Made by a program: the position numbers and the translations under genes. DNA of 64,000 nucleotides. It comes from Nocardioides panacis (GTDB taxonomy: Bacteria > Actinomycetota > Actinomycetes > Propionibacteriales > Nocardioidaceae). The stretch covers positions 3,100,001 to 3,164,000 of the forward strand of contig NZ_CP077062.1 in NCBI RefSeq assembly GCF_019039255.1, written 5' to 3'. Below, one piece after another: positions 1 to 11,026 of this stretch (its first letter is position 1; each line of letters starts with the position of its first letter). The notes under the pieces are model-generated. The model was not told the origin of the DNA and did not search any database. It saw only the letters and a list, made by a program, of their open reading frames with translations.

Positions 1-1890
1 GGGGACCTCCACCCGCCCGGTCGCGGCGTCCACGTCGAGGCCGGTGACCGCCACCAGGCAGGCCAGCGGTGCGGCCGCCGCCCAGGCCTGTGGGCGGCAC
101 GACGCCGGGTAGTCCACCGGGAACGCCACGTCGGTCGACTGGTCACCGCCGTACAGCTCGGGCAGGCGGTAGGCCACGCCCTCGCTCGCGGCCACGAGCC
201 CGGCGGTGAGGTCGGCGGCCGCGTCGACGTACCCGTCGAGCGCGAGGCCGCGCACCGCGACCGCGGTGTCGTGCGGCCACACCGAGCCGCCGTGGTAGCT
301 GAGCCGGGAGAACCGCGGGGACCGGCTGGTCAGCGTGCGCAGCCCGAAGCCCGAGGCCATGTCGGGGGCGGTCAGCACCTCGACGACGCGCGCCGTCCGC
401 TCGTCGTCGAGGATCCCGGTGCCCAGCAGGTGGCCCATGTTGGAGGCCACCGAGTCGACCTGGGCGCCGGTGCCGTCGAGCGCGATCGCGACGTGCCCGC
501 CCTCGGCGGTGTCCACCCAGAAGTCGCGGGCGAACCGCGCCCGGAGGTCCGTCGCCCAGTCGGCGAGACCGGCGACCGGCTCCTCGCCGAACGCCTCGAG
601 GAGCGCGGCACCCCGAACGGCGGCCTCGTAGGCGTAGCCCTGCACCTCGCTGAGCGCGATCGGCGCCTCGGCGAGCCGGCCGTCGGCGAACTGCACCGAG
701 TCGACGCTGTCCTTCCAGCCCTGGTTGGCCAGGCCGCGCCCGGACAGGTCGACGTAGCGCAGCCAGCCGGACTCCCGCGACTGCTCGACCACCCACGCCA
801 GGCACCGGCGTACGACGGGCAGCAGGTCGGCCACCTGCTCGCGGTCGGCGCCCCACTGCCAGGCGTCGGCGAGCGTGCAGACGAACAGCGGCGTCGCGTC
901 GACGGTGCCGTAGTAGACCGGCGGCAGGCTCATCCCGCCGAGCTCGAGGGTGGTGTTGCGGACCTCGTGGAGGATCTTGCCGGGCTGCTCCTCGGAGTCC
1001 GGGTCGACCTTCGTGCCCTGCCGCCGGGCCAGGGTGCGCAGCGTCGAGAGCGCCAGCCCGGTCGTGAACGGCATCATCAGCCGGGCCACCCACAGCGAGT
1101 CGCGGCCGAACAGGGTCAGGAACCAGGGCGCGCCGGCCGCGACGAACGCGTCGTCGCCGTCCTTCATCAGCAGCCCGCCGAGGTCGGCCAGGCTCTGCCG
1201 GACCAGCCGCGGCAGCCGGACGTCGGGCGCGTCGACGGCGACCCCGCCCCACGGTGCCGGTCCTCCGGGCCCCAGCGCGGGGGTGCCGTGCGCGGTGAAG
1301 GTCAGCCGGACGGTGAACGACCCCCCGGGCGCGAGGGTGGTCGACCAGCTCGCGCGGCGGCCCTCGTCCACGTCGTCGGGGGCCGGCGCGAACGCCACCT
1401 CCACACCGGTCTCGCCGCGCCGCCAGGCCAGGCCGTGCTCGGTCCGCTCCCCCGCGACGGCGTGGTCCTCGAGGTGCCGGCCGCCGCGGACCTCGGCCAT
1501 CGGGGCCAGGTCGGTCGCGAGGTCGACGTACAGGGTGAGCGGGACGTCCTCCTGGGCGCGCGAGGCGACCTCGATCTCCTCGACCAGGCCGGCCGCGGTC
1601 AGCGAGCGCCGGCGGTCCACGCTCACCTGCGGGTCGTGGATCCAGCCGCCGAGCCGCCGCGCGACGTAGGTGTAGGACTGCCGGTCGGCGCCGCTCAGGT
1701 CGGACCCGATCAGCTCCAGGTCGCTGCCCCGCACCGAGACGGACAGCTCGGCGAGCAGCCGCACGTCGTCGACGAACCACCCCTGGACGCCGCCGCGACC
1801 GACCTGGCCGTCGGGGCCGGACAGCACGATGGCGGGGGCGGCGACGCTCACGGCGAGGTCGTTGAGCAGCGGGGTCAGGTGCTGGGTCAC
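1..1890 (-). CDS. Glycogen debranching enzyme-like protein (amylo-alpha-1,6-glucosidase family), C-terminus cut by window edge
   Basis: The visible 630 residues begin with an N-terminal glycogen-debranching domain (about residues 10-200, beta-rich, with the typical WFVDDVR segment near residue 38). A GH15/GH63-like (alpha/alpha)6 barrel follows, with the family hallmarks FGRDSLW, LRTLARRQG and SYHGGSVWPHD. Such proteins hydrolyse alpha-1,6 branches or trim related oligosaccharides in the cytoplasm. The reading frame is open to base 1, so the C-terminus lies outside the window. The GTG start at 1890 is preferred because the hexamer TAGGGT lies exactly 6 nt upstream, as in other leaderless genes here. 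The gene is divergent from mdh. The family is clear; the exact substrate is not. Confidence 0.82.
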   Translation of the reverse strand, partial: MTQHLTPLLNDLAVSVAAPAIVLSGPDGQVGRGGVQGWFVDDVRLLAELSVSVRGSDLELIGSDLSGADRQSYTYVARRLGGWIHDPQVSVDRRRSLTAAGLVEEIEVASRAQEDVPLTLYVDLATDLAPMAEVRGGRHLEDHAVAGERTEHGLAWRRGETGVEVAFAPAPDDVDEGRRASWSTTLAPGGSFTVRLTFTAHGTPALGPGGPAPWGGVAVDAPDVRLPRLVRQSLADLGGLLMKDGDDAFVAAGAPWFLTLFGRDSLWVARLMMPFTTGLALSTLRTLARRQGTKVDPDSEEQPGKILHEVRNTTLELGGMSLPPVYYGTVDATPLFVCTLADAWQWGADREQVADLLPVVRRCLAWVVEQSRESGWLRYVDLSGRGLANQGWKDSVDSVQFADGRLAEAPIALSEVQGYAYEAAVRGAALLEAFGEEPVAGLADWATDLRARFARDFWVDTAEGGHVAIALDGTGAQVDSVASNMGHLLGTGILDDERTARVVEVLTAPDMASGFGLRTLTSRSPRFSRLSYHGGSVWPHDTAVAVRGLALDGYVDAAADLTAGLVAASEGVAYRLPELYGGDQSTDVAFPVDYPASCRPQAWAAAAPLACLVAVTGLDVDAATGRVEVP

Positions 1891-1896
1891 GCGAGC

Positions 1897-1902
1897 ACCC
1901 TA
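1897..1902 (-). promoter_or_regulatory. Leaderless-type -10 element of the debranching gene
   Basis: TAGGGT on the minus strand, followed by 6 nt and then the GTG start. Actinobacterial -10 boxes follow TANNNT, and this spacing puts the transcription start at or near the start codon. No clear -35 was seen. Confidence 0.5.
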
Positions 1903-1990
1903 CGAGCCGGGGTGCCCCCGCGGGCCGGACCCTTGCTAGCGTCGGCCCCGAAGCCCAGACAACTGGACCCAGACAGACCAGGAGCCTCCC

Positions 1991-2980
1991 GTGAGCACTA
2001 CCCCCGTCAAGGTCGCCGTCACCGGCGCCGCCGGCCAGATCGGCTACAGCCTGCTCTTCCGGATCGCGAGCGGGGACCTGCTCGGCAAGGACACCCCGGT
2101 CCAGCTGCAGCTGCTGGAGATCACCCCGGCCCTCAAGGCGCTCGAGGGCGTCGTGATGGAGCTCGACGACTGCGCGTTCCCGACGCTGGCCGGCGTCGAG
2201 ATCGGCGACGACGCGAACACCGTCTTCGACGGCGCGAACCTCGCCCTGCTCGTGGGCGCCCGTCCCCGGACCAAGGGCATGGAGCGCGGCGACCTGCTCG
2301 AGGCCAACGGCGCGATCTTCACCGCCCAGGGCAAGGCGCTCAACGAGGTCGCGGCCGACAACATCCGGATCGGCGTGACCGGCAACCCGGCCAACACCAA
2401 CGCGCTGATCGCGATGACCAACGCCCCGGACATCCCGCAGGAGCGCTTCACCGCGCTGACCCGCCTGGACCACAACCGGGCCCTGTCCCAGCTCGCCGCC
2501 AAGACCGGCAGCACCGTGCGGGACATCAAGAAGCTGACGATCTGGGGCAACCACTCCGCGACCCAGTACCCCGACATCTTCCACGCCGAGGTCGGTGGCA
2601 AGAACGCCGCCGAGGTCGTGGGCGACCAGGCCTGGATCGAGAACGACTTCATCCCGACCGTCGCCAAGCGCGGCGCCGCGATCATCGAGGCGCGCGGCTC
2701 GTCCTCGGCGGCGTCCGCCGCGTCGGCCACCATCGACGCCGCCCGTGACTGGCTGCACGGCAGCCCCGCGGGCGACTGGGTCTCGATGGCGGTCCGGTCC
2801 GACGGCTCCTACGGCATCCCCGAGGGCCTGATCTACTCCTACCCCGTCGTCACCAAGGGCGGCGACTGGGAGATCGTCCAGGGCCTCGAGATCGACGACT
2901 TCTCGCGCGGCCGGATGGACGCCACCGCGGCCGAGCTCGTCGAGGAGCGCGACGCGGTCACCGGTCTCGGCCTGATCTGA
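1991..2980 (+). CDS. mdh: Malate dehydrogenase
   Basis: NAD-dependent oxidation of malate to oxaloacetate in the TCA cycle, cytoplasmic. The 329-residue protein has the Rossmann motif [12 protein letters not shown] near the N-terminus, the substrate loop with [13 protein letters not shown], the [10 protein letters not shown] segment, TRLDHNRA and the catalytic-His motif NHSATQYPD. Length and motifs match the cytosolic-type MDH of actinobacteria. The GTG start at 1991 has AGGAG a few bases upstream. A TAGCGT hexamer at 1936-1941 may be its -10 box, which would give a leader of about 40 nt. It is convergent with the DUF3017/folD genes and separated from them by a strong hairpin. Confidence 0.96.
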
Positions 2981-3337: not shown

Positions 3338-4204
3338 TCAGCCCCGCTCGAGGGACTGCTCGGCCACCGACACGATGTTGGACAGCAGCATCGCCCGGGT
3401 CATCGGGCCGACGCCCCCGGGGTTCGGGGAGACCCAGCCCGCCACGTCGTGCACGTCGGCGGCGACGTCGCCGGCGATCTTTCCGTCCACCCGGGACACC
3501 CCGACGTCGAGCACCGCGGCGCCGGGCTTGACCATGGCGCCGGAGATGATGCCGGGCACGCCGGCCGCGGCCACCACGATGTCGGCGTTGCGCACGTGCG
3601 CGGCCAGGTCGCGGGTGCCGGTGTGGCACAGCGTCACGGTCGCGTTCTCGCTGCGCCGGGTCAGCAGCAGGCCCAGCGGGCGGCCCACGGTCACGCCACG
3701 GCCGACCACCACCACCTCGGCGCCGGCGATCGCGACGTCGTGGCGACGGAGCAGCTCGACGATGCCGTACGGCGTGCAGGGCAGCGGCGCGGGCTTGCCG
3801 AGGACCAGCCAGCCGAGGTTCGTGGGGTGCAGGCCGTCGACGTCCTTGGCCGGGTCCATCCGGCCGAGCACGTCGTGCTCGCTCATGTGCTTGGGCAGCG
3901 GCAGCTGGACGATGTAGCCGGTGCAGGCCGGGTCGGCGTTCAGCCGGTCGACCTCCGCCTCCACCTCGGCCTGCGTCGCGCTCTCCGGGAGGTCCACCCG
4001 GATCGAGGTGATGCCGACCTCCGCGCAGTCCTTGTGCTTGCCGCCGACGTACCACTTCGAGCCCGGGTCGTCGCCGACCAGGACGGTGCCGAGGCCGGGC
4101 ACCACGCCCTGCTCGCGCAGCGCGTCGACACGGACGGTGAGCTCGGACTTGATGGCCTTGGCGGTCGCGTTGCCGTCGAGGATCTGTGCGCTCACGGGGG
4201 TCAT
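3338..4204 (-). CDS. folD: Bifunctional methylenetetrahydrofolate dehydrogenase/cyclohydrolase
   Basis: Interconverts 5,10-methylene-THF and 10-formyl-THF with NADP, supplying the formyl donor used by PurN and PurH just upstream. The protein has 288 residues. The catalytic Tyr52-x3-Lys56 pair (YVGGK) and the PLPKHM segment are visible, as is the dinucleotide loop [16 protein letters not shown] (the usual GRS appears as GRG). The C-terminal motif [14 protein letters not shown] is intact. The start could be ATG 4204 or the GTG at 4192, a difference of four residues. It follows purH by 22 nt on the same strand, which makes a one-carbon/purine operon purN-purH-folD-DUF3017 likely. Confidence 0.95.
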
Positions 4205-4226
4205 CCAATCATTCGCGGGGACGGGC

Positions 4227-5825
4227 TCAGTGGAAGAAGTGCCGGGTGCCGGTGAAGTACATCGTCACGCCGGCCGCCTCGAGCGCCGCGACGACCTCGT
4301 CGTCGCGCTTGGAGCCGCCGGGCTGGACGATCGCGCTGATCCCGGCGTCGACGAGGACCTGGGGTCCGTCGGCGAACGGGAAGAACGCGTCGGAGGCGGC
4401 GACCGAGCCGGCGGCTCGCTCCCCGGCCCGCTCGACGGCGAGCCGGCAGGAGTCGACCCGGTTGACCTGGCCCATGCCGACGCCGACCGAGGCGCCGTCG
4501 GAGGCCAGCAGGATCGCGTTGGACTTCACCGACCGGCAGGCCTTCCACGCGAACGCGAGGTCGGCGAGCTGCTCGGGCGAGGCGGCCCGGCCGGTCGCGA
4601 GCGTCCACTTCGACGGGTCGTCCCCGCCGCCGTCCACCTCGGCGTCGACGGCGTCCCGGGCCTGGATCAGCAGGCCGCCGGAGATCCCGCGGGTCTCGAG
4701 GCCGCCGCGGGTCGCCGGGGCGCACTCGATGACCCGGATGTTCTTCTTGCGGGCCAGCACCTCGACGGCGCCCTCGTCGTACCCGGGCGCCACGACGACC
4801 TCGGTGAAGATCTCGGCGACCTGCTCGGCCATCGCGACCGAGACCGGCACGTTGGTGGCGATCACCCCGCCGAAGGCCGAGACCGGGTCGCAGGCGTGCG
4901 CCTTGCGGTGCGCCTCGGCGACGTCGGCGCCGACCGCGATGCCGCACGGGTTGGCGTGCTTGATGATCGCGACCGCGGCGCCGTCGAGCTCGTAGGCCGC
5001 CCGGCGGGCCGCGTCCGCGTCGACGTAGTTGTTGTAGGACATCTCCTTGCCGTGCAGCTGGGTGGCCTGCGCGAGACCCGGCTCCGGCGCGAACCCGCTC
5101 GTGTAGAGGGCGGCGCGCTGGTGCGGGTTCTCGCCGTAGCGCAGCACCGTCGCCTTGTCCCAGGTCGCCCCCATCCAGGCCGGGAAGCCGGTGCCGTCGG
5201 AGGTGTCGGTGAGCACGCTGCCCATCCAGGACGCCACGGCCACGTCGTACGTCGCGGTGTGCACGAACGCCTCGGCGGCCAGCCGCTTGCGCTGGGCCAG
5301 CGTCGTCCCGCCCTCACGGACGGCGGCCAGCAGCTCGTCGTACTGCCCGGGGGAGGTCACGATCGCGACGGACGGGTGGTTCTTCGCGGCGGCCCGCACC
5401 ATCGACGGCCCGCCGATGTCGATCTGCTCGACGCACTCGTCGGGCGCCGCGCCGCTCGTCACCGTCTCGGTGAAGGGGTACAGGTTGGACACGACCAGGT
5501 CGAAGGGCTCGACGCCGAGCTCCTGGAGCTGGGCGCGGTGGGACTCCAGGCGGCGGTCCGCGAGGATGCCCGCGTGCACCATCGGGTGCAGCGTCTTCAC
5601 CCGGCCGTCCAGGCACTCGGGGAAGCCGGTGAGCTCCTCGACCGGGGTCACCGGGACGCCGGCGTCGGCGATCCGCGCGGCGGTCGACCCGGTGGAGACC
5701 AGCGCCACCCCGGCGGCGTGCAGCGCCCGGGCGAGCTCCTCGAGGCCGGACTTGTCGTAGACGGAGACCAGGGCCCGGCGGACCGGCTGGCGGGCGTCGG
5801 GCTGGGCGGGCGTCTGCTCGGACAT
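4227..5825 (-). CDS. purH: Bifunctional AICAR formyltransferase/IMP cyclohydrolase
   Basis: Catalyses the last two steps of IMP synthesis: formylation of AICAR and ring closure. The N-terminal MGS-like cyclohydrolase domain (about residues 10-145) contains SVYDKSGL and the SNLYPF segment. The C-terminal formyltransferase domain has [10 protein letters not shown], the KHANPCG catalytic loop and the C-terminal [10 protein letters not shown] motif. The start at 5825 (MSEQTP) is preferred over an in-frame ATG at 5840 because AGGAG sits 7 nt upstream of it. The 532-residue length is normal. It lies downstream of purN, in the pathway with folD. Confidence 0.96.
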
Positions 5826-6568: not shown

Positions 6569-6574
6569 AGGCTA
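6569..6574 (-). promoter_or_regulatory. Leaderless-type -10 element of purN, overlapping a stop codon
   Basis: TAGCCT on the minus strand, 7 nt before the purN GTG. Its TAG is the stop codon of the DUF6350 gene, so purN may have its own promoter inside the operon. Confidence 0.45.
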
Positions 6575-7787
6575 CCGACGGCGCGACCACCAGGTGGCGC
6601 CGACGCCGCCGACGAGACCGCCGACGCCCATCGCGACGGTGGCGGCCACGAAGGTGGGCACCAGGTCGGCGCCGACGTCGGCCATCCGCCCGGGCCCGAC
6701 CGCACCGCCGGCGAGCATCACCAGCACGGTGAGCAGGACGCCGCCCAGCACCCCCGACCCGAGCCCGCGGACCGCGCCGACCTCGAAGCCGTAGGCTGGG
6801 AAGCGGCGGACCACCAGCACCGCGGCGAGCGCACCCACCAGCACGGGTACGGCGACCAGGGCGCTCGTGAGCGGCGACGGCGAGCCCTCGGAGGGCAGCG
6901 CCGCGAGCAGCGGGAACGCCGGGACGGGGCCGAGCACCACGGCCGACGGCGAGACCACCGTGCCGGTGCCGACGGCGAAGCCGGGGCCCAGCAGGTAGGA
7001 GCCGGAGAGCAGCGCGGCGTTCGGGGCGACGGCCGCGACGAGCACGGTGTAGAGCAGCCCGCCGGAGGTGTCCGCGTGCAGCCGGGACAGCACGTTCGCG
7101 GCCGACCCGAGGTCCAGGACGAGCGCGACGGCGAGCAGCACGGCGCCGGCCGCGACCATCGCCAGCGTCGCGGCGAGCGCCCCCTTCAGGATCGCCCGGC
7201 CGGTCTCCGGGACCCTCCCCCGCCAGTCCACGACGTGCGCGCTGCCGGCCAGGATGCCCGAGCCGCCGCCGACGAAGGCCAGCGCGAAGCCGCCCGCGAA
7301 CGCGCGCAGCAGGCTGGACTCGGCGGTGGCGGTCGCCGCCAGCAGCGCGGTGACCAGCGCCACGACGCCGTACAGGCCGGACATCACGACGGTGCCGAGC
7401 AGCACGGTGCCGGCATCCTCGACCGCGGACGTGCGGGCGGCCCAGGCGCCGAGCCGGTGCGCGACGTACGCGCAGAGCACGGTGAGGCCGAGCGGGAGCG
7501 CGGTGACGGTCGCGCTGACCGCACCGGTGGTGAGGTGCAGGGTGGCGCCGTGGGCGAGCAGCCAGCCGTCCGCGCCGACCCGGATCGCGTCGCGGGTGGT
7601 GCCGTGGCCGCCCGCGTCGGAGGCGAACCAGCCGACCAGGCCGAGGGCCATGCACCCCATCAGCACGGCACCGGAGGCGACCACGCCGGCGAGGGCCGCG
7701 CCGAGGGCGAGCGGGCGCTGGGGGGTGCTCCCGGGCCGGTCCGAGGGGGGCGTCCGGGTGCCACGGGGGGGCGAGAAGATCAGTCAT
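6572..7787 (-). CDS. DUF6350 polytopic membrane protein (frame broken near its N-terminus)
   Basis: A highly hydrophobic protein with about ten membrane segments. Its position between sucD and purN matches the DUF6350 family of actinobacteria, which has no proven function. The continuous frame reaches only to a GTG at 7684, which would start inside the first membrane helix. Upstream the same frame still encodes a good helix (LALGAALAGVVASGAVL) but meets a stop before any start. An ATG at 7787 in the neighbouring frame gives MTDLLAPP, and removing one base from the C7 run (G7 at 7765-7771) joins the two into a 404-residue protein. A second run, G6 at 7745-7750, could equally be the site. Either an indel error or a real frameshift. 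Confidence 0.7.
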
Positions 7788-7950
7788 CCCGGCCCATCCT
7801 CGCCGAGCGTGATCTCGATCTCGGGCTCCCACGCCGGTTAGGAACGGCGGTGCGCGGCCACTACCGTGGAGGACTTCCACGCGGGTCCGAGCGGGGTGCT
7901 GCACGCCCCGGCGGCGACCAGGACGCGCGACCGGACGACAGGAGACACGC

Positions 7951-9769
7951 ATGGCGCGGGAGGAGAGCTTCGACTCCTTCTACCGGGCGACCCGTCGACC
8001 GGTGCTGCACCAGGCGCTCGCCCTCACCGGTGACCTGCCGGCGGCGCAGTCGGCGGTGCGCGACGCGTACGTCGGGGCGTGGCAGCACTGGCGCAAGGTG
8101 TCCCGTCTGGAGGACCCCCTCGACTGGGTCCGCCCCCGGGCCTGGCAGCTGGCCCAGCGCCGGCACACCGCCCGGATCTGGCACCGGACCAAGGGCACGA
8201 CCGAGCAGCACAAGGCGGTGCTCGACGCGCTCGCCGCCCTGCCGGTCGCCCAGCGCCGGGTGCTGCTGCTCGTCGACCTCGCCGGCCTCGAGCCGGGGCA
8301 CGCCGCCCGCGAGCTGGGGGTGACCCGCGAGGTGGCCGAGCACAACCTGCGCTCGGCCACCGAGGCGCTCACCGCCCGGCTCGGCGTCGACCCGGCCACC
8401 GCCCACGTCCGTGTGGTGGCGCTCGACGCGCTGCTCGAGCACGCCTCGCTCCCCCCGCGGCCCGATCGTCCGCCGGGCCGGCCGCAAGCGCCGCCAGGGG
8501 CACGCCCTGGTCGGCACCGCGGTCGCGGCCGTCGTCGCGCTCGGCTCCGGCGCCCTGGCCTACCAGCCGAACGCCAGCGACGCCGGCGAGCTCCGCCTGG
8601 TGAAGCCGGAGGTCCCGGCGACGGCGGCGGTCACCGACACGACCCCGACCGGCGCCAACCTCCTCGACCGCGACCAGATCCGCCGGCTCGGTGAGGACCG
8701 GCCCTGGCAGGTCACCCGCACCGACGACAACACCTCCGGCGACGGCATCAACACCACCTGCCAGCAGACCCGGTTCGCCGACCCCGACGGGGTCGCCGCG
8801 CTCGTGCGGACCTTCTCCACCCGGGGCGGAGCCCAGCGCTCGGCCGTGCAGACCGTCGAGGTCTCCCGCTCGGAGCGGCAGGCCCGGCTGGGCTTCCGCA
8901 CCACGGTCGGCTGGTACGCCGGCTGCCGGGTGGGCCGGCTCCAGGTGCTGAGCTCCTACCGGGTCGACAACATCGGTGACGAGGCCGCCGTGCTGATGCT
9001 GCGGCTGTGGAAGAAGCCGGTCACCACCCTGTCGGTGGCGATCGCCCGCACCGGCAAGGTGACCACCTCCACCGTCGGCAGCACGGTCGGCGCGAGCCCG
9101 CCCCCGCCCTCGCAGATCACCCAGTCGCTCGCGGACTCGGTGGCGATGCTGTGCGCGCGCAGCGGCTCCGCGGACTGCGCGAAGCAGCCGACCTACCGCG
9201 TCGTACCCCCGCCGCCGTCCGGGGAGGAGCGCGGCATCCTGGCCGTCGCGGACCTGCCGCCCGTCGGCCGGATCGCCCGGCCCTGGGTGGGCACCAGGCC
9301 CGCACCCGCCCGGCGGAACCCGTCGGCGACCACCTGCGACCAGGCGGACTTCGCGAAGGCCGGTGCCACGACGACACGGACCCGGACCTACCTGATCCCC
9401 GAGGCGTCGCTGCCCGCGCGGTTCGGGCTGTCGGAGACCTACGGCCGGTTCCGCACCCCGGCCGCCGCGCGCCGGTTCCTGAGCGACGTGCGCCGCAGCG
9501 TGGCGCGCTGCGAGGACCGCGACCTGGCCACCCAGGTCAGCGGCGAGCGGCACCAGGCGGACCGGTCGCCGCAGCTCGACCTCTCCAGCTGGGACCTGCA
9601 GACCGAGATCAGCGACAAGCAGAAGGTGCGCTTCCGGCTCGGCTTCGTGCGGGTCGGCGACACCGTCGCCCAGCTCACGTTCGCGCCCGCCCCCAGCGAC
9701 GACATGACGGCGACCGGCTTCCACTCCCTGCTGGTCCGGTCCGCCGACCGGCTCCGCGAGCTCGGCTGA
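7951..9769 (+). CDS. ECF sigma-factor-like protein fused to a membrane anchor and extracytoplasmic domain (frame broken at a C6 run)
   Basis: The first 165 or so residues carry ECF sigma region 2 (about 8-70) and region 4 with its helix-turn-helix (about 90-143, AARELGVTREVAEHNLRSA). The frame then degenerates into Arg/Pro-rich nonsense. One base fewer in the C6 run at 8451-8456 leads into a second frame: a basic stretch (VRRAGRKRRQ), one membrane helix (about 184-204) and some 400 residues with paired Cys, which would lie outside the membrane. The joined protein has 605 residues. The start ATG 7951 has AGGAGA upstream. If the join is right, this is a membrane-tethered sigma-like regulator. 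If not, it is a sigma gene overlapping a membrane protein without a good start. The outer domain is unrecognised. Confidence 0.6.
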
Positions 9770-9790: not shown

Positions 9791-11026
9791 GTGACCCAGC
9801 ACCCGACGCGCGCCGACGCGGTCGCCCTCGACCTGGCGAGCCCGCTGCGCGCCCGCCGTGAGCTCTTCGCCCTCCCCGACGGGGTCGTGTACCTCGACGG
9901 CAACTCGCTCGGCGCGCTGCCCCGCGCGGTGGCGCCGCGGCTGCAGCAGGTGGTCGCCGAGGAGTGGGGCACCGGCCTGATCTCCTCGTGGAACACCGCC
10001 GACTGGGTCGGCCTCGGCCGGCGGGTCGGGGACCGGATCGCGCCGCTGATCGGCGTCGCGCCCGGCGACGTGCACGTCGGCGACTCCACGACGGTCACGC
10101 TGTTCAAGACGTTCGTGGCCGCCAGCCGGCTGCGGCCCGGCCGCCGCGTGGTGGTGCTGGAGCCGACCACCTTCCCCACCGACGGGTACGTCGCGGCCGG
10201 CGTCGCCCGGATGCTCGACCTCGAGCTGCGCTGGTGCGACCCCGCGGACCCGGCCGCCTCCCTCGACGAGGACGTCGCGCTCCTCTCGCTGACCCACGTC
10301 GACTTCCGGTCCGGCGCGATGTACGACCTCGCCGCGCTCACCGCCGCCGCGCACGACGCCGGCGCGCTGGTCCAGTGGGACCTCTGCCACTCCACCGGCG
10401 CCGTCCCGGTCGCCCTGCTCGACGCCGACGCCGACATCGCGGTCGGCTGCACCTACAAGTACCTCAACGGCGGTCCCGGCTCCCCCGCGTTCGCGTGGGT
10501 GCACCCCCGCCACCAGGCCGCCTGGGACCAGCCGGTCACCGGGTGGTTCGGGCACTCCCGCCCGTTCGACATGGACCGCGCCTTCACGCCCGCCGACGGC
10601 ATCGCCCGGATGGCCTCCGGCACGCCCCCGGTGCTCGCGCTCTCCGCGCTCGACGCCGCGCTCGACGTGTTCGACGGGGTGTCGCTCGACGTGCTCCGGG
10701 CGGCGTCGCTGTCGCTGACCGACCTGTTCCTCGAGCTCGTCAACGCCCGCCTGGGCTCCGCCTTCGAGGTGATCACGCCGCGCGAGCACGGCCGGCGCGG
10801 GAGCCAGGTGTCGCTGCGGCACGAGCAGGCGTACGGCGTGGTGCAGGCGCTCGTCGAGCGCGGGGTCGTCGGCGACTTCCGCACGCCGGACGTGGCGCGG
10901 TTCGGGTTCGCCCCGCTGTACGTCACGCACGCCGACGTCTTCGACGCCGTGGGCCACCTCGTCGCGGTGCTCGAGGGCGACGAGCACCTCCGGCCCGAGT
11001 ACACGGTGCGGAACGCGGTCACGTGA
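9791..11026 (+). CDS. kynU: Kynureninase
   Basis: PLP enzyme cleaving L-kynurenine to anthranilate and alanine in tryptophan catabolism. Over 411 residues it shows the kynureninase N-terminal YLDGNSLGALP, the WNTADW segment, the PLP-binding QWDLCHSTGAVP (Asp197) and the Schiff-base lysine K223 in CTYKYLNGGPGSPAF. FGHSRPF and the substrate-pocket motif ASGTPPVLAL follow. Tryptophan dioxygenase and kynurenine formamidase genes are not in the window. The gene overlaps the DUF402 gene by 4 nt (GTGA). It is transcribed against the flanking sucD/DUF6350 genes, which suggests an insertion into an older gene block. Confidence 0.93.
   Translation: MTQHPTRADAVALDLASPLRARRELFALPDGVVYLDGNSLGALPRAVAPRLQQVVAEEWGTGLISSWNTADWVGLGRRVGDRIAPLIGVAPGDVHVGDSTTVTLFKTFVAASRLRPGRRVVVLEPTTFPTDGYVAAGVARMLDLELRWCDPADPAASLDEDVALLSLTHVDFRSGAMYDLAALTAAAHDAGALVQWDLCHSTGAVPVALLDADADIAVGCTYKYLNGGPGSPAFAWVHPRHQAAWDQPVTGWFGHSRPFDMDRAFTPADGIARMASGTPPVLALSALDAALDVFDGVSLDVLRAASLSLTDLFLELVNARLGSAFEVITPREHGRRGSQVSLRHEQAYGVVQALVERGVVGDFRTPDVARFGFAPLYVTHADVFDAVGHLVAVLEGDEHLRPEYTVRNAVT

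Follow-up and report, generated by a model that had tools for sequence, protein, structure and literature searches.

In the window, a 64,000-nucleotide stretch of Nocardioides panacis DNA, the gene at positions 7951 to 9769 belongs to one family-wide clade, each of whose parts is shown, by alignment and tree building, to be homologous to either a sigma gene or its membrane-partner gene. We give roughly even chances to the reading that its product is a receptor in which a SigE-family ECF sigma factor has become the inner domain and now serves as a sigma mimic. In relatives the gene encodes a single-pass membrane protein: sigma-derived regions 2 and 4 are followed by an Arg-rich segment next to the membrane, then by the helix and, probably, by two PknH_C-like outer domains in tandem. 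The preliminary description had combined, in a single protein, a sigma-like domain and basic stretch with one membrane helix and a large outer part, and this anatomy was confirmed in relatives.

In the window the gene is divided between two reading frames. The sigma-like sequence lies in the frame opened by the ATG at 7951, and the membrane helix and large outer part occupy the +1 frame, which stays open until the stop at 9767–9769. The switch between the two falls at a C6 run (8451–8456, plus strand). Correction of this run had been predicted to give a single protein of 605 residues, and both the figure and its coordinates are consistent with the frames that we found. Third codon positions have a GC of 0.97 in the first frame as far as 8448 and of 0.98 in the second once 8456 is reached; extending the first frame past the run gives only 0.57. 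Both halves therefore look like genuine coding sequence, each on its own side of the run. The neighbouring genes are a divergent DUF6350 gene on the minus strand (6572–7684; PF19877, 3.9e-72) and a kynureninase gene on the plus strand (9791–11026; TIGR01814, 5.1e-84), so that no anti-sigma gene is adjacent, as originally described.

All 32 aligned relatives read through the position of the C6 run in one frame, with varied codons and no frame change (0/32), which makes a programmed slip unlikely; programmed frameshifting at the run was rejected. The frame change in the window would then be either a recent real frameshift or else a sequencing or assembly error. That it is real in this strain, the halves now being two proteins or the gene being dead, seems to us rather unlikely, and this estimate is independent of the other readings. 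The difference is one base in a homopolymer, where single-base differences are a common assembly error, and third-position GC is still strong in both frames. These points weigh against a real change, for which speak the assembly in one contig (4.90 Mb, 99.96% completeness), the loss of the sigma part from three congeners and the weak constraint on the window copy.

Uninterrupted frames occur in the same genus, with 615 codons in genome G001 and 622 codons in G002. The outer part is present in 7/7 genomes of the genus, the window's own counted. In G003 its match reaches the contig end, and in G004, G005 and G006 the membrane helix and outer part are present but the sigma part is missing. A family-wide profile search found the outer part in 308 of 324 family genomes. 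The sigma-like profile matched 299 of the 324 at E<=1e-25, and 290 of these at E<=1e-38 (290/324, as counted from the result table). The remaining 25 genomes had no sigma-like match at E<=1e-25; G003, with its outer part at a contig end, is among them. Among about 150 matches listed (counted by eye), only three fall in open frames shorter than 549 codons, namely those of the window (293 codons), G110 (317) and G270 (248). The outer part of G270 is on a different contig from its 248-codon sigma-like frame. The fused-type sigma part in the 317-codon frame of G110 (contig C15, 7069–7566) is perhaps a second broken copy.

For alignment, 32 intact homologues (593–620 aa) were selected manually, the criteria being an intact sigma part and spread; left out were the sigma-less loci L006, L007, L008, L031 and L032, the contig ends L003 and L009, duplicates and some near-relatives (e.g. 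L023). The part order is identical throughout. The strongest hydropathy peak falls at residues 180–217, next to the Arg-rich stretch, in 32/32 homologues. A search for further related loci gave one more locus, at a contig end. Since intact one-ORF homologues with the same domain order are found in Nocardioides and throughout the family, fusion is the usual state in the family. As the 32 aligned one-ORF relatives show, the homologues need not be encoded as two genes, and relatives share no conserved stop between the domains.

In several sigma-less relatives the membrane helix and outer part remain. Three are from the window's genus, namely L006 (1498–2781, plus strand), L007 (1498–2832, minus strand) and L008 (1489–2841, plus strand); L031 and L032 (both 1480–2745, minus strand) belong to genus g15. 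These five indicate that the outer part is able to persist alone.

The features of the protein are all encoded on the plus strand. It begins with a sigma region 2-like domain (residues 1–82, 7951–8196), which is followed by a region 4-like domain (residues 84–145, 8200–8385) whose recognition helix is non-canonical by residue statistics. In Pfam, the sigma part of the window matched Sigma70_r4_2 at E=3.9e-6 (26.9 bits, cutoff 25.7) and, below the cutoff, Sigma70_r2 at E=5.6e-4 (20.1 bits, cutoff 24). TIGR02983 scored 58.9 bits, below its cutoff of 141.55. Among the 32 members, at E<=0.1, region 4 was found in 25 and region 2 in 3. A single-sequence structure model of 7951–8451 had a pLDDT of 81. 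Its nearest PDB folds were ECF sigma factors (best E 1e-3) and PhyR, the latter in an entry titled as the PhyR anti-anti-sigma domain bound to NepR; the whole-chain TM was only 0.3–0.4, and region 4 alone reached about 0.8 by target length. The model thus suggests that the inner domain keeps a sigma fold of region 2 plus region 4. The cytoplasmic linker with the Arg-rich stretch (8386–8503) holds the frame change; in two-gene relatives, the membrane partner has a cytoplasmic tail that aligns with this linker. The single predicted membrane helix (8504–8560) is based on the hydropathy peak of the homologues and was positioned in the window from the translation.

The outer part was divided into domain 1 (8657–9206) and domain 2 (9207–9766). 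PknH_C (PF14032) matches the C-terminal half in 25 of the 32 members at E<=1, the best value being 9.5e-8 in one member, and a whole-protein Pfam scan found it in 18/32 at E<=0.1. The gathering cutoff of PknH_C is 27 bits, the first member scores 16.3 bits and the window copy has no Pfam hit; domain 2 is assigned in the window through the matches of homologous half-domains. No Pfam family matched the N-terminal half convincingly. When its profile was compared with that of the C-terminal half, hhalign gave a probability of 77 and E=2e-5. The outer part is probably two PknH_C-like domains, the first diverged. The outer domain had been called unrecognised, which holds for the window copy itself but not for relatives, where the C-terminal half is PknH_C-like. 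Profile searches of both halves against PDB sequences gave two weak matches each, at E of at least 0.65, and nothing meaningful; a two-sequence structure model of the outer part had a mean pLDDT of 41.9, too poor for a fold search. PknH is a Ser/Thr kinase that bears PknH_C as an extracellular domain. In the fused protein the C-terminal outer domain, whose match is weak but repeated, shows conserved cysteines and is attached to a sigma-derived domain instead of a Ser/Thr kinase.

We then looked at more distant genomes. In the order-mate family f3, the outer part stands without a sigma part at all loci examined (8/8), in frames of 455–500 codons with a short Arg-rich tail. The same absence of the sigma part was found in 22/22 genomes examined of the order-mate family f2, and no sigma-like match was present within the 1.5 kb flanks in these 22 genomes. 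In place of a sigma part, the outer part at the f2 loci L092–L113 has a tail that is rich in Pro and Ser, mostly long and probably disordered. A class-level search with the outer part matched 38 of 246 genomes; the matches in family f21 were weak. All 8 f21 loci examined have a separate SigE-type ECF frame beside a membrane-partner frame. In f21, the loci L129, L132, L133, L134, L135 and L136 carry a SigE-type sigma, a membrane partner and another SigE-type sigma arranged head to tail. A profile of five f21 partners, from which L130 was left out as its start motif was not found, aligned with the fused linker, helix and outer part with an hhalign probability of 99.1 and E=1.7e-18 over 423 columns, beginning in the cytoplasmic tail. 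Four partner proteins from the family itself also align with the outer part (E=5.2e-10, 222 columns).

Of the 73 family genomes with a fetched stretch (flanks of 1.5 kb in most), 19 by our hand count have a free SigE-type sigma with the hallmarks that is adjacent to the fused gene or no more than a few kb away. Among 20 longer stretches, such a sigma is present in five (L035, L039, L043, L050 and L052) and absent from 15. In the three that were checked (L039, L043 and L052), the end of the free sigma gene overlaps the start of a separate partner gene. In G001 (L035, minus strand, 3585–5606), a second SigE-type sigma with intact hallmarks is joined to a membrane partner in a 673-codon frame. 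Six other ECF genes of the window's own genome were checked. In five cases the next gene starts at −8 to +9 nt and encodes a short tail together with a hydrophobic stretch; the strongest peak is elsewhere in one of these five, and no such gene was found for the sixth ECF. At L138, L140, L141, L142 and L143 of this genome, an ECF gene and then a gene for a tail, a hydrophobic stretch and a further part look like a common module.

In a tree rooted by midpoint, the 33 fused sigma parts form a single branch with support 100/99, beside the free SigE-type sigmas, a group with lower support (78/86). The inner domain is nearest to SigE-type sigmas (TIGR02983), and the rest of the protein is homologous to the partner gene. 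The fused gene therefore looks like a merged version of a two-gene module, in which a SigE-family ECF sigma gene is accompanied by a partner gene; by these alignments the partner has a short, Arg-rich tail, then a single membrane helix and then the outer domains, in the same order. The two-gene module differs in its two genes, its intact hallmarks and its usually longer linker. The preliminary description had regarded the protein as unlike the usual sigma/anti-sigma pair; with the f21 loci and the partner-profile match in hand, it looks like just such a pair merged. The simplest history would be one merger of sigma and partner in the ancestry of the family, after which the sigma part was lost again in places. 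A fusion of greater age, with the sigma part lost in f2 and f3, is a less simple alternative.

To compare the fused and free sigma sequences, we aligned 33 fused sequences column by column with 33 free SigE-type sigmas, which are those in loci already fetched and not a census. Eight other ECFs (7 from the window's own genome, 1 from G002) served as a separate control. The Gln of region 2.2, presumably the equivalent of the core-binding Q406 of sigma70, is found in 33/33 free SigE-type sigmas and 8/8 other ECFs but in only 1/33 fused sequences. The acidic residue (E or D) three positions before it is kept in 2/33 fused and 32/33 free sequences. In region 4.2, of 33 sequences each, Thr is present in 3 fused versus 33 free, Lys in 0 versus 27 and Arg in 3 versus 33. 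The other eight ECFs have the Thr in 5, Lys or Arg at the place of the Lys in 8 and the Arg in 2, so the Arg is not a universal mark. The mean number of Lys plus Arg in the 15-residue recognition segment is 1.1 in fused, 3.7 in free and 3.1 in other ECF sequences; for acidic residues it is 2.3 in fused versus 0.8 in free.

The fused clade is also short by about 12 residues around the sigma2–sigma4 linker. Between fixed columns spanning this linker there are 26–31 residues (median 27) in fused sequences, 27–42 (median 39) in free ones and a median of 40 in other ECFs; the lowest free SigE-type value, 27, equals the fused median. According to PMC6411747, deletion of the linker of sigmaH abolishes transcription, and other ECF linkers swapped in partly restore it. 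This evidence concerns deletion or swapping and not shortening, and the need for the linker was seen for sigmaH only.

We scored dN/dS in the 12 close pairs whose outer parts have an identity of more than 0.6, using a simple count-based method in which dS is rough. The ratios were 0.15–0.45 for region 2, 0.23–1.39 for region 4 and 0.19–0.63 for the outer part. By these ratios selection is still acting on region 2, the constraint being clear in 12/12 pairs. The sigma part of the window gave 0.64 against both G002 and G001, and its outer part gave 0.62 against G002, 0.66 against G001 and 0.42 against L009, which indicates that constraint is weak in the window copy itself. Conserved basic residues follow region 2 and could meet DNA. 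The sigma domain is anchored in the membrane as had been claimed, in the anatomical sense; that it is still a working tethered sigma is doubtful, because the hallmark residues kept by its free cousins are absent.

In the upstream region, a housekeeping-type −10 box (TANNNT) was found within 110 nt of 33/33 fused genes, where 300 shuffles gave a mean of 10.6 and at most 18; in 19/33 it lies at −25 to −5 (shuffled mean 1.6). This excess over shuffles suggests a housekeeping promoter and an often leaderless message. The candidate in the window is TACCGT at 7862–7867 (plus strand, at −89), called by consensus match only. It is overlapped by an ECF-like box pair, GGAAC-N19-CGT (7841–7867, plus strand), which is at chance level: GGAAC-N15-21-CGT occurs in 1/33 upstream regions, that of the window, with a shuffled mean of 0.46. 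A strict ECF-like box pair was found in 0/33 upstream regions and looser patterns in 1 to 4 of 33, none above shuffles. Sharing of an ECF-type promoter, which had been put forward as a check, was thus not seen in the 33 upstream regions, and with no box pair above chance there is no sign of autoregulation.

The main rival to a receptor with a sigma-mimic inner domain is a working ECF sigma held at the membrane, freed by regulated proteolysis on a signal to the outer domain and making unusual promoter contacts; we judge this to be unlikely. In its favour, the broad anatomy is that of ECF48, ECF52, ECF53 and IutY (PMC8999054, PMC5826349). The sigma fold is kept according to the model and fold search, the 673-codon fusion of G001 is an apparently working fused sigma nearby, and the window alone has GGAAC-N19-CGT upstream. 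Set against this are the loss of the region 2.2 Gln, the region 4.2 residues and the linker length in nearly all 33 fused sequences, the lack of an ECF-like box pair above chance in the 33 upstream regions and the absence of a zinc-finger anti-sigma domain match in the 32 members at E<=0.1.

The other rival takes the inner domain as a decaying relic of a merged sigma gene, with only the helix and outer domains still of importance, and we find it more improbable than probable by a wide measure. Against it, region 2 is constrained in all 12 pairs and the inner domain is kept in 290/324 family genomes. The relic reading draws on the five sigma-less loci (L006, L007, L008, L031 and L032) and the interruption in the window, on the 25/324 family genomes without a sigma-like match at E<=1e-25, on the fast evolution of region 4 and on the order-mates with an outer part and no sigma part (8/8 f3 loci, 22/22 f2 genomes).

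The sigma-mimic receptor is preferred because the hallmarks are lost in 33 fused compared with 33 free sequences while region 2 is still constrained. It is further supported by the fused ORFs found throughout the family, by the single branch of fused sigma parts and the homology to the partners, by the 19/73 genomes with a nearby hallmark-bearing free SigE-type sigma, by the housekeeping-type boxes and by PhyR among the fold-search neighbours. Several observations count against it. In the window's own genome the best other match to the fused profile is only 8.7e-20, with no free sigma of the closest clade, and none was found within the 17 kb scanned around the window gene. Region 4 is still recognised by Pfam in 25/32 members, constraint on the sigma part of the window is weak (0.64), the outer part stands alone in five sigma-less relatives, and some of the hallmarks, though not the region 2.2 Gln, are missing from part of the 8 other ECFs. 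The sigmaH work did not shorten the linker but deleted or swapped it, and the conserved basic residues that follow region 2 might contact DNA.

As a sigma mimic, the inner domain would no longer direct RNA polymerase to promoters, and would keep a selected region-2 surface with which it works at the membrane. Since promoter and core contacts are apparently gone and region 2 is kept, it may act by binding a protein. The outer domains, which by the predicted topology face the envelope, would sense a cell-envelope signal, and this signal would switch the ability of the mimic to bind another protein. The most plausible target may be the short cytoplasmic tails of related membrane partners, so that a true SigE-family sigma would be set free; polymerase itself is a less plausible one. 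We assume here that the partner tails act as anti-sigmas, and the partner, the signal and the direction of the switch are likewise what we infer. In its specific form, a membrane-bound mimic that is stripped of core and promoter contacts and titrates the anti-sigma-like tails of sister SigE modules, the proposal is tentative and, taken by itself, improbable.

PhyR, whose sigma-like domain is among the solved folds nearest to the inner-domain model, is a soluble response regulator of alphaproteobacteria that uses its sigma-fold domain as a mimic. The mimic proposed here differs in that it would be membrane-bound and equipped with outer sensors; no response-regulator family, and so no receiver domain, was matched at E<=0.1 among the 32 members.

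The one-protein arrangement put forward in the preliminary description has precedents, since membrane-fused sigmas (ECF48, ECF52, ECF53, ECF36 and IutY) are already known (PMC8999054). Proteolytic release of the tethered sigma was proposed for ECF52 (PMC5826349) and reported for IutY (PMC8999054). ECF52 (SCO4117), ECF48 and ECF53 resemble the fused protein as actinobacterial one-protein combinations of an ECF sigma part, a membrane helix or helices and a long regulatory extension; they carry a zinc-finger anti-sigma domain, and ECF52 also a carbohydrate-binding outer domain (PMC5826349 and PMC8999054). Like them, the relatives and, across the frame change, the window gene combine a sigma part with a membrane helix and an outer part in a single protein. 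The fused protein differs from them in its PknH_C-like outer domains, in a sigma part without the canonical residues and in the lack of a zinc finger, which was not among the 16 Pfam families matched at E<=0.1 by the 32 members. A literature search for this fusion, covering titles and the beginnings of abstracts with few subscription journals, returned only general ECF or unrelated work, which leaves its absence from the literature unproven.

Few of the known membrane-fused sigma factors have been studied. The anatomy alone is not new; the surprising part, functionally unproven, is the apparent loss of hallmarks together with continued constraint on region 2. The family shows a route by which a sigma gene and a partner gene become one protein, and the fused and two-gene states stand side by side in some genomes, which makes the effect of fusion directly testable. 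If true, a sigma part without its usual contacts that is still under selection family-wide would be a new reuse of a transcription factor as the output of a receptor.
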